NCBI RefSeq assembly: GCF_014696355.1
Contig: NZ_JACJQA010000046.1
Location: 62,001-126,000, forward strand
DNA length: 64,000 nt
DNA from: Pseudanabaena sp. FACHB-1998
GTDB lineage: Bacteria; Cyanobacteriota; Cyanobacteriia; Pseudanabaenales; Pseudanabaenaceae
Direction: 5' to 3'
Shown here: positions 53,419 through 55,744 of the stretch, in pieces
How positions within the stretch are numbered: the first letter of the stretch is position 1
How the letters are laid out: every line of letters begins with the position of its first letter
Notes under the pieces: generated by a model
What the model was told of the DNA's origin: nothing
Seen by the model: the letters and a program-made list of their open reading frames with translations, nothing else
Database searches by the model: none
Position numbers and translations under genes: made by a program

Positions 53419-53511
53419 AGTAGCTGGGCATAATTAAAAACCCAGAATCAAAACCTGTGGCGCACGCGCAGCGTGCGCCACAGGTTTTATATTTAATTTC
53501 GCTTAGCTACT
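53419..53511. repeat. MITE-like element, family B, copy 4 (most complete)
   Basis: A 93-bp element. Inverted ends AGTAGCTGGGCATAATTAA and TTAATTTCGCTTAGCTACT are flanked by a further complementary AAATATAA/TTATATTT. The centre is an almost perfect palindrome, AAAACCTGTGGCGCACGCGC with its complement. It lies between the TetR-fusion gene and ftn2. Confidence 0.8.
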
Positions 53512-53524
53512 TATATTTTGACAT

Positions 53525-54772
53525 TTAAGAATCAAGGGCGATCGCTTTATCAATGGCGAGTTTTTCATTGAGGCGAATTTGATAGGCTTGCAACTCTCTC
53601 GCCCTGAGACCACTAATAATGCAAAAACTATCAGGATCGATGCCACGACTTAACATTTCGATACACCAAGTATGTCTTGCCTGTTCGATGCTTAAGGGTG
53701 AGCCATCAGGATTAAGATAGGGCTGTGTCCAGCTTTCCCAAAGTTGTTCGATTTCTTCGAGAGAGATAGGTCTAAGATCGCCACTAATAAACATTGATTC
53801 CATATCACTGGGCTGATCTTTATGAGCCTTAAATTCATTTTTCCGCGATTTTAAATAGGCGCTCAAGGGATTATTCGTTGCCGAGCCGTAGCGATGACCG
53901 AGAATTTTTTGATTAATAGGTACTGACCTCGTGTTTCCTGCGCCATCCCTAGTCCGCAAAATGCCGTGATTAGCGTGATGTTGGTAATCTTGAAAACGCA
54001 ATTTGGTTATATCTAGGGCCGTTAAGCCTGCCCCAAATAGGAGATAGGCGATCGCATAGTCCTTAACTCCACATTTTTTTGCCTGTACCAAAATTTCGCG
54101 CACGGTTTCCGACGTAATGTCCATGATCTGTCTCGCATGAACGATGGGGCTTACTTCTTGGATAAACATATCAACGAGCGTGTTGACAAACTCATCGCGA
54201 TCGCTCCAGATCGCTTGCACATCGCTGGTGAGCGTAATTACGGCATAGCCCAAAATGCAGGTATTTAATAAGTTGGCAAGTTTAATCGGCGGCAAAGAAT
54301 ATTGCAGACGCGAATTAGCCAATACATCATTAATCGCCGTAGCGATCGTTTGATTAACCTGATTTATCCCTTGAGCAAGGGCTTGACGACTTTCCAGAGG
54401 ATACTGACCTGCCTCACCCACCAGCGATCGCACTAATTCAGGTACACTTTCGAGCGCCCTCAAAGAACTCTGAATATAATATTTAAGAAATCGGCGTAAA
54501 TCGCTCTGACTAGAAATATCCGATACCATGAGTGACTCCCCTACTTGAGCCAACACCAAATATTTTTGCAAACATTCTTGCAATACAGCTAACAATAAAC
54601 CATGCTTATTCCCAAAATGGCGAAATAAAGTTACTTCATTAACCTGAGCAAAGTCGGCAATTTGGCGAGTGGTTGTCTCGGTAATTCCTTTGCTGGCAAA
54701 CAACTCTAGGGCTGTATTGACAATTCTCTGGCGAGTAGGAATTCGAGATACAGACACGGGAGTATGTACCAT
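53525..54772 (-). CDS. TetR-type regulator fused to a degenerate tyrosine-recombinase domain
   Basis: This 415-residue protein starts at ATG 54772; a TTG 15 bp upstream is less likely since it would overlap a palindromic site. Residues about 10-57 form a TetR HTH (TRQIADFAQVNEVTLFRHFGNK) with a TetR ligand domain to about 200. Residues about 215-415 resemble the catalytic domain of phage integrases: GAGLTALDITKLRF (first Arg replaced by T251), QARHTWCIEML (R366 kept, preceding His replaced by E363), and ISGLRARELQAY (His replaced by L, Tyr397 kept). DNA cleavage is therefore unlikely. It is divergent from a desaturase gene and probably regulates it. Confidence 0.8.
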   Translation of the reverse strand: MVHTPVSVSRIPTRQRIVNTALELFASKGITETTTRQIADFAQVNEVTLFRHFGNKHGLLLAVLQECLQKYLVLAQVGESLMVSDISSQSDLRRFLKYYIQSSLRALESVPELVRSLVGEAGQYPLESRQALAQGINQVNQTIATAINDVLANSRLQYSLPPIKLANLLNTCILGYAVITLTSDVQAIWSDRDEFVNTLVDMFIQEVSPIVHARQIMDITSETVREILVQAKKCGVKDYAIAYLLFGAGLTALDITKLRFQDYQHHANHGILRTRDGAGNTRSVPINQKILGHRYGSATNNPLSAYLKSRKNEFKAHKDQPSDMESMFISGDLRPISLEEIEQLWESWTQPYLNPDGSPLSIEQARHTWCIEMLSRGIDPDSFCIISGLRARELQAYQIRLNEKLAIDKAIALDS

Positions 54773-54783
54773 TAAGATGATTT

Positions 54784-54798
54784 GCAAGTGCTACTTGC
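54784..54798. promoter_or_regulatory. Candidate operator 1, GCAAGTGCTACTTGC
   Basis: A 15-bp near-palindrome 11 bp upstream of the TetR-fusion start codon. A near-identical copy lies 51 bp away at 54835. It is probably the binding site of the adjacent TetR-type regulator. Confidence 0.6.
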
Positions 54799-54834
54799 AT
54801 TATTGATTAAAAAACAGTTAGACTTAACATAACT

Positions 54835-54849
54835 GTAAGTGATACTTGC
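54835..54849. promoter_or_regulatory. Candidate operator 2, GTAAGTGATACTTGC
   Basis: It differs from operator 1 at two positions. It lies 31 bp before the desaturase ATG (54881), so it could block that promoter. Confidence 0.6.
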
Positions 54850-54880: not shown

Positions 54881-55744
54881 ATGACCGTTACTACTGAAGC
54901 CATATCAACAGAGCAAAAGCTGAACTGGACAAACGTTGCCTTTTTCAGTGCTTTCCATCTTGCGGCTCTAGCCGCGCCATTTTATTTTTCTTGGCAAGCT
55001 GTTGTCCTTACAGTTTTCTTGCATTGGTTTTTCGGAAGCATTGGGATTACCTTGGGTTATCACCGCTTACTGAGCCATCGTAGTTTTCAAGTGCCTCAGT
55101 GGTTGGAATACATCATTGCTACTGTTGGTGCGTTGGCATTGCAAGGTGGACCAGTATTTTGGGTGGGTGGACACCGACAGCATCACGGATTTACAGAGGA
55201 CAATCAAAAAGATCCCTATTCAGCAAATAAAGGCTTCTGGTGGAGCCACATCATGTGGATCATGTATTCCAAGCCAGAACATTTTCAGCGCTCAAACTAT
55301 AGCAAATTCGCACCCGACCTAGCTAATGATCCGTACTACACATTTCTAGATCGTTACTTTTTGCTGTTGCAAGTGCCTCTAGCGGCATTGCTCTACGTCG
55401 TTGGCGAATATGTTTATTCGGGGCTAGGTGCTTCATTCTTGATTTACGGCATGGCTGTGCGTTGCGTATTTCTCTGGCACAGTACTTGGTTGATTAACTC
55501 CGCTTGTCACAAGTGGGGCTACAAAAACTTTGCCGAAACCCCCGATCATTCGACTAACCTCTGGTGGGCGGCGATCTTGACCTATGGCGAAGGCTGGCAC
55601 AATAATCACCACGCTTATCCTAAATCCGCCAGAGCTGGTTTGAAATGGTGGGAGATCGATCCTACTTGGGCGGTTATTAATCTATTAAAAACAGTTGGCT
55701 TAGCCAAAAAGGTCTACTTACCTGAACCGTGGCAGGCTAAATAA
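54881..55744 (+). CDS. desC: Acyl-lipid desaturase (delta-9 type)
   Basis: This 287-residue membrane di-iron enzyme introduces a double bond into membrane-lipid fatty acids. The three histidine boxes are present: HRLLSHRS, HRQHHGFTED and HNNHHAYP. Four hydrophobic helices flank them. The layout matches cyanobacterial DesC. ATG 54881 (MTVTTEAIS) is preferred to an upstream GTG that lies inside operator 2. A strong terminator follows the stop codon. Control by the divergent TetR-type protein is inferred from the paired palindromes. Confidence 0.93.
   Translation: MTVTTEAISTEQKLNWTNVAFFSAFHLAALAAPFYFSWQAVVLTVFLHWFFGSIGITLGYHRLLSHRSFQVPQWLEYIIATVGALALQGGPVFWVGGHRQHHGFTEDNQKDPYSANKGFWWSHIMWIMYSKPEHFQRSNYSKFAPDLANDPYYTFLDRYFLLLQVPLAALLYVVGEYVYSGLGASFLIYGMAVRCVFLWHSTWLINSACHKWGYKNFAETPDHSTNLWWAAILTYGEGWHNNHHAYPKSARAGLKWWEIDPTWAVINLLKTVGLAKKVYLPEPWQAK

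Follow-up and report, generated by a model that had tools for sequence, protein, structure and literature searches.

A TetR regulator joined to a degenerate tyrosine-recombinase domain adjoins a fatty acid desaturase gene and conserved twin palindromes in Cyanobacteria

The closest precedent for the fusion protein described here is MrpR (YopR), the master repressor of the Bacillus prophage SPbeta (PDB 8A0A), which, according to excerpts of its description, resembles the fusion in having a recombinase fold without recombination and acts as a repressor of transcription (PMC10516654). Three of seven catalytic residues are present in it (Glu, Lys and Tyr), while the Arg and His positions are changed (PMC10516654, Table 3); the same excerpts report that a change of the Tyr leads to temperature sensitivity and that MrpR is a monomer by gel filtration (PMC10516654). 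Another recombinase-fold repressor is SroF of phage phi3T (9rgl, 9rd5), known here from its PDB titles alone, in which no TetR half is stated. Among recombinases, the XerA/XerC/XerD type is nearest both in sequence profile (4a8e) and in structure (5hxy_D). The TetR half of the fusion has the same fold as the lipid-responsive regulators FadR (Bacillus, Thermus) and FasR (Mycobacterium), whose chains in our match list comprise about 190-200 residues, and the fusion likewise adjoins a lipid gene. To our knowledge, FadR and FasR carry no recombinase domain. How cyanobacteria set the unsaturation of their membranes is an old question, and the open-licence literature that we searched held no title fitting such a fusion or a TetR regulator of a desaturase.

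The protein is encoded in Pseudanabaena sp. FACHB-1998 by a minus-strand gene at 53525-54772 of the window, by which we mean the whole stretch of 64,000 nucleotides that was analysed. The gene is supported by ORF analysis, translation, Pfam and full-length homologues, specifies 415 amino acids and ends with a stop codon at 53527-53525; its start is assumed to be the ATG at 54772, the same open frame containing a TTG further upstream. Residues 17-63 (54584-54724, minus strand) form a TetR_N helix-turn-helix (Pfam E 2.7e-13). PF00440 (TetR_N) matches all 57 aligned homologues, in which N45-F50 and nearby residues of this motif are invariant (57/57). The TetR part named in the earlier note turned out to be more than a helix-turn-helix: residues 12-205 (54158-54739, minus strand) make up a whole TetR half, with an all-helical ligand and dimer domain whose helices reach residue 205 in the AF2 model and which is also found by structure matches. 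The remainder, residues 214-415 (53528-54133, minus strand), is a degenerate tyrosine-recombinase catalytic domain (Int domain) according to AF2, the XerA match and the sequence profile. In the window protein alone, Phage_integrase scores weakly at residues 219-381 (E 4.4e-5, 23.8 bits; curated cut-off 27.1). This weak score does not reflect chance, since 53 of the 57 homologues match at E <= 0.01 (best 2.6e-12) and the profile of the family finds XerA; together with the structure, these family-wide matches rule out a chance integrase match. A pseudogene or assembly artefact is likewise ruled out by the presence of the same open fusion in many genomes, including single-contig ones. Further neighbours of the fusion in the window are an ARC6-like gene, Hsp70, GNAT and a PhoU gene. 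Just 3' of the fusion gene, at 53450-53488, lies a strong hairpin of 18 pairs, which is terminator-like or belongs to a repeat family.

Structure prediction supported both halves. The whole-protein AF2 model reached a mean pLDDT of 83.2 and a pTM of 0.53, and because of the latter the placing of the TetR and Int halves relative to each other is unsure, whereas the C-terminal half modelled alone gave a pLDDT of 94.6 and a pTM of 0.91. The best structure match of the Int domain (VIA) was XerA 5hxy_D (Z 20.0, rmsd 3.5, 179 residues aligned), followed by XerH and an integron integrase, while lambda Int and Cre ranked lower; YopR/MrpR (Z 11.4-11.9) and SroF (Z 12.5-13.0) were among the matches. The best matches among viral models, so far as they carry a name, were integrases. 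The family profile of the C-terminal half retrieved Pyrococcus XerA (PDB 4a8e) with an E value of 7.1e-11. The comparison with XerD and lambda Int proposed in the earlier note thus ended in a recombinase fold, closest to XerA and further from lambda Int, and its central claim, a TetR regulator and a tyrosine-recombinase domain in one protein, is borne out by Pfam, profile, AF2 and structure alike. The TetR half matched EthR (Z 17.9) as well as FadR and FasR (Z about 16) over ~180-190 residues; the likeness to FadR and FasR is one of fold only, as EthR, QacR and others match too. The core-binding domain of recombinases is absent from the fusion, where the TetR half stands instead (Pfam, AF2 and structure), and no resemblance was found between the TetR and Int profiles. 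Compared with XerA/XerC/XerD-type recombinases, the fusion has lost the catalytic set, lacks a core-binding domain, is joined to TetR and contains an extra conserved stretch. MrpR, in contrast, has its own core-binding domain, keeps the Lys, has no TetR part and is phage-borne, as far as the excerpts of its description go; the fusion is without this core-binding plus catalytic architecture and is not phage-borne in the records searched. Each half is of a known kind, and it is their joining, conserved in Cyanobacteria, that appears new against the papers searched.

An intact tyrosine-recombinase active site (R, D/E, K, H, R, H/W, Y) was found in none of the fusion members scored. The six scored positions were complete in none of 125 fusion members (124 distinct, as the rows include one repeat); a single member has five, eight have four and the rest three or fewer. 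The Arg-I position (251) is occupied by Ser in 83 members, Thr in 27 and Arg in one, the acidic position (254) by Glu in 99 and Asp in 21, the His-II position (363) by His in none and Lys in two, the Arg-II position (366) by Gln in 82 and Arg in 37, and the His/Trp position (389) by Trp in 47. The Tyr position (397) retains Tyr in 119 members and shows Phe in four, Cys in one and His in one; any Lys in the beta-turn was found in 19. T251, E363, R366 and Y397 of the window protein sit where the earlier note had put them, as judged from translation, alignment and profile. R366, given there as a kept Arg, holds for the window protein but not for most of the family, and the catalytic Lys, which the note did not list among the losses, is absent from the window protein and from the majority of members. 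The least degenerate member, L136 (genome G113), keeps Arg-I, Glu, Arg-II, Trp and Tyr and has lost His-II and the Lys. The catalytic loss, for which the note had proposed an alignment of homologues, is thus family-wide but uneven. The retained Tyr is no proof of activity, since MrpR, in which a comparable set of residues is kept and changed, has its Tyr without recombinase activity, and, judging from its residues, the Int domain is almost surely unable to cut DNA.

Nevertheless, the Int domain is under purifying selection. In 325 pairs within the genus, of which 284 were usable for the Int domain, the median dN/dS was about 0 for the helix-turn-helix, 0.029 for the TetR ligand domain and 0.109 for the Int domain (maximum 0.245); these are rough values, as synonymous sites are almost saturated (the median dS is 1.2 in the TetR ligand domain and 1.5 in the Int domain). 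Column counts in 112 unique members (24 repeats removed from 136 rows) additionally revealed a near-invariant family-specific stretch at residues 282-311 (53840-53929, minus strand), R-x-VP-x-NQ-x-I-x-G-x-RYGS-x3-NPL-x3-LK-x-RK, about nine residues of which have no partner in XerA. That a recombinase fold was recruited into a transcription factor, as the earlier note suggested, is supported by the fold, the family-wide catalytic loss and this selection.

The plus-strand gene at 54884-55744 encodes a fatty acid desaturase of the DesC type (Pfam FA_desaturase E 6.6e-20; the ATG at 54884 is assumed as start, the open frame beginning earlier). Neither this neighbour nor the palindromes described below figured in the earlier note. 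Of 136 loci (L001-L136, a few of which repeat a genome), 135 have a desaturase gene that adjoins the fusion divergently at a distance of no more than 0.71 kb; in the exception, L061, the contig ends about 309 bases before the desaturase open frame. The same neighbour was found in 17/18 loci of a follow-up set, the remaining one being the orphan tail L141, and in 15/18 loci of another set, the remaining three being paralogous TetR controls. In G047, fusion and desaturase genes stand in tandem and both palindromes precede the desaturase gene rather than tetR, which points to the desaturase as the conserved target. A search of eight genomes for the class of desaturase showed that in the six that carry either the fusion or its TetR-only form the adjoining enzyme is 57-66% identical to that of the window (100% for the window's own), while two genomes with no match (G056 and G069) each have one desaturase with 50-51% identity. 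The genome of the window itself contains a second copy, 60% identical to the first; for Anabaena PCC 7120, the part of a 2008 survey available here gives two d9 genes (PMC2593844). No third gene was shared among seven desaturase-side neighbours from seven loci. Overall, the desaturase gene is very probably the target of the fusion regulator, which makes the protein a candidate desaturase regulator that many lineages have conserved, together with its likely operators, next to a single class of desaturase.

The interval between regulator and desaturase gene contains two copies of GCAAGTNNNACTTRC, in most cases separated by 46-53 bp. Members of the TetR family bind palindromes close to their own gene, and we predict from sequence that the two conserved copies found here are operators. 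In the window, predicted operator A (GCAAGT-GCT-ACTTGC, 54784-54798) is perfectly palindromic and lies 11 bp ahead of the tetR ATG, and predicted operator B (GTAAGT-GAT-ACTTGC, 54835-54849) follows 51 bp from A and 34 bp before the desaturase ATG; both are conserved across loci. We counted sites with <=2 mismatches within 900 bases before the helix-turn-helix in 142 family and control loci and found two in 109 loci, three in 19, one in 10 and none in four. The four comprise the three paralogous TetR controls, with no site in that range, and G047, whose sites are on the other side; in most of the 19 loci, the third site is found at a distance of about 650 bases, where it overlies the desaturase gene. 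Both sites were present in 125 of 128 distinct fusions (130 rows including two repeats). L080 and L099 have a second site only at 3 mismatches, and L030 has one site even at that threshold; in L151, the nearest two sites are 85 bp apart. Within the 109 two-site loci, the distance from A to B is 47 bp in 49, 46 bp in 32, 51 bp in 11 and between 43 and 70 bp in the others. The operator pattern occurs at only two places in the 4.78-Mb genome, both at this locus, and at 0-2 places outside the locus in each of 20 other genomes, compared to 0-7 per strand for a control pattern; G038 contains no exact match anywhere. Exact pattern matches in these 21 genomes hence gave no sign of a wider regulon. As a minor observation, a further near-palindrome is found inside the desaturase gene of the window (55369-55383), where it may only reflect protein conservation, and some congeners show one with 1-2 mismatches at about -647 from the helix-turn-helix.

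Comparison of two-site loci suggests a desaturase promoter in this interval. A -35 box TTGCAT (54795-54800, plus strand), overlapping operator A, and a -10 box TAGACT (54819-54824, plus strand; 18 bp after the -35 box, best of five spacings) are predicted in the window. Among the 107 of 112 upstream stretches taken in, site A always ends with TTGC, the operator's own arm, followed by A (107/107). The best -10-like hexamer, picked from five spacings, was found 16-18 bp on in all 107 and is preceded by TG in 75. A generic promoter scan of the window did not list the predicted desaturase promoter, and the groups with 46- and 47-bp spacing showed no strongly conserved sequence beyond the operators and the promoter-like bases.

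The family is widespread. A match at E <= 1e-3, in many cases to the TetR half only, was obtained in 53 of 58 relatives, and one at E <= 1e-30 in 44 of 386 phylum-sample genomes, three of them TetR-only; the best 80 of 533 relatives in a scan of named genomes were all cyanobacterial by title. Among 146 cyanobacterial genomes, some of which were scored in part (e.g. 22 of 61 candidates), the Int domain occurred only inside fusions, with 14 genomes matching (E <= 1e-8). All 136 fusion loci contain an open frame of at least 400 residues. G047, which carries the fusion, forms the first branch (97/96) of a 16S tree that comprises 19 genomes and has a single distant E. coli row as its root. A 16S match was obtained for 21 of 30 genomes asked; some pieces, taken from locus flanks, were longer than the gene (up to 2.8 kb), and the columns used were those occupied in at least 30% of rows. 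Barring transfer, the fusion is probably as old as the sampled phylum, and the tree favours an ancestral fusion with later loss of the domain over transfer. The regulator may thus be as old as the phylum itself.

Nine intact loci of three lineages are TetR-only (L137-L140 and L157-L161). All of them adjoin the desaturase gene and keep the palindrome, with one mismatch in some sites, and a sensitive locus scan revealed no remnant of the Int domain in any, which assigns the palindrome to the TetR half. Seven of the nine, from two lineages only, have one site; in six of these (all but L139) the site is A, with promoter-like boxes following. Both sites are kept in L137 and L161, and also in the frame-broken L162. 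L140 is placed inside the family of fusions to which that of the window belongs (100/100) in a rooted tree of 44 rows chosen by hand, while L137 stands beside fusion bearers (97) in a large tree, from which 18 near-identical Pseudanabaena rows were left out, and has no supported placement in the rooted one. Neither the TetR-only f5 clade nor the deepest member had a supported joining point in the TetR trees. Overall, two or more losses of the Int domain with retention of the locus are probable, and these lineages represent natural deletions for comparison. L162-L166, which are cut by contig ends or frame-broken, were left out of both the fusion and the TetR-only counts. In L162, L164 and L166, all on draft contigs, TetR and Int lie in different frames or TetR is split, and sequencing error and real decay are indistinguishable there.

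The reading that we favour, and hold to be reasonably probable, is that the fusion is an autoregulated TetR repressor of the adjoining desaturase gene whose dead Int domain couples two dimers. TetR dimers would bind the two like palindromes; at A they would cover the -35 box of the desaturase together with the stretch just before the tetR start, resulting in autoregulation, and at B they would cover the start of the desaturase transcript and occlude it. Release of the DNA would be caused by a small molecule that enters the TetR ligand domain and is most likely a signal of acyl-lipid nature. The Int domain, which appears to descend from the catalytic domain of a Xer-like recombinase, would hold the A and B dimers together through recombinase-type subunit contacts on paired sites, including those of the long conserved C-terminal helix. 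Coupling of A and B is the role that fits best because nearly all fusions have both sites. A second site is wholly missing from only one fusion (L030) compared to seven of the nine TetR-only loci, which is suggestive of coupling, though from two lineages only. If so, the link is more likely flexible than rigid, since the spacing varies; a rigid bridge would suit the locus poorly, given that spacings of 46-47 and 51 bp, the two main classes, turn the sites to different sides of the helix. The reading as a whole is favoured by the near-constant desaturase neighbour, also on a plasmid, by the rarity of the pattern elsewhere, by the paralogous TetR controls with no site, by the FadR- and FasR-like fold and by the low dN/dS of the Int domain. 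Speaking against it are the two sites in the TetR-only L137 and L161 and in the frame-broken L162, the lone, weaker or more distant second site in the fusions L030, L080, L099 and L151, the promoter missing from the generic scan, the fold-only likeness to FadR and FasR and the five positions kept in L136. Of the 'DNA-binding or oligomerisation module' envisaged in the earlier note, oligomerisation would be the better-fitting half, and DNA binding by the domain the less likely one.

The latter role is nonetheless the most serious alternative, in which the Int domain would act as an additional DNA-binding module, gripping the promoter DNA either between the operators or next to them and with no strong preference for sequence. 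We regard this as unlikely. The fold is that of XerH, Cre and lambda Int, which have been solved on DNA, MrpR binds DNA as a repressor with the same fold according to excerpts of its description (PMC10516654), and the stretch at 282-311 contributes conserved Arg and Lys residues. Against this, the core-binding domain of recombinases is absent, and a DNA-binding role is further weakened by a palindrome that is kept without the domain, by the lack of extra conserved sequence in the 46- and 47-bp groups and by a net charge with a median of only +1 (range -5 to +6 in the 125 fusion members compared).

The low charge would equally suit a sensor or partner-binding module that responds to a lipid, temperature or another protein and gates the TetR half, its role on DNA having gone. 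Such a module might also explain why most active-site residues have disappeared while a new family motif is near-invariant, and why the domain was lost in lineages where regulator, target and palindrome persist. However, no ligand or partner is indicated and the few neighbours scanned have no third gene in common, so that we consider this reading rather improbable. That the Int domain is an inert relic of an ancient fusion event is very improbable: it was probably lost at least twice with the locus kept and evolves faster than the TetR half, but its dN/dS is low even at the maximum, most of its near-invariant residues are also found in the deepest-branching member, and the frame is open in 136/136 loci. 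A live recombinase aimed by TetR at the operators, e.g. for inversion or resolution of the DNA between A and B, is hardly conceivable, as the paired sites, the Tyr in 119/125 and Asp or Glu in 120/125 members and the five of six positions in L136 stand against a family with no complete set, no His at His-II (Lys in two), one Arg at Arg-I, Lys in the beta-turn of only 19 and a Tyr replaced in six.

Returning to the coupling of two dimers, we tentatively suggest, while thinking it doubtful, that the dead Int domains are a synapsis device which a TetR regulator captured before the diversification of the sampled cyanobacteria and which pairs the dimers across the desaturase promoter, much as recombinases bring two half-sites together, and that the resulting pseudo-synapse may sense temperature or membrane state. 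If true, the desaturase would be switched by making and breaking a pseudo-synapse.

With regard to mobile DNA, 50,697 phage records contained no relative, and none of 31 pattern matches in viral contigs was confirmed. A search of plasmids gave one match, which is the whole regulator-desaturase pair. Taken together, these searches rule out a mobile-element integrase that came to lie beside a TetR gene by accident. The fusion thus represents a cellular rather than phage-borne case of a recombinase domain that has seemingly turned into a regulatory part. For a derivation of the domain from one of the genome's own recombinases, three loci gave weak matches only (4 to 12 bits per domain). One locus of this genome, L209 (G000:C31), is an open frame of 518 residues with two tandem Phage_integrase matches. 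An orphan tail was noted in G027 (L141, G027:C3:2527478-2527639), a 132-residue ORF that shares 57% identity at its end with fusion residues 361-414 and looks like a detached copy of the Int tail; the fusion locus of this genome is L030, with one operator only, and G027 is absent from the matches of the 146-genome Int scan. The plasmid match lies on the mobilizable pP742403 of Gloeothece citriformis PCC 7424, where the pair has both sites, 47 bp apart, and the record labels the fusion just as 'TetR/AcrR family transcriptional regulator'. On this plasmid (L206, NC_011730.1, 15572-24132), the pair is located near genes for an orange carotenoid protein and a light-harvesting-like protein, a set that is perhaps a mobile photoprotection cassette.
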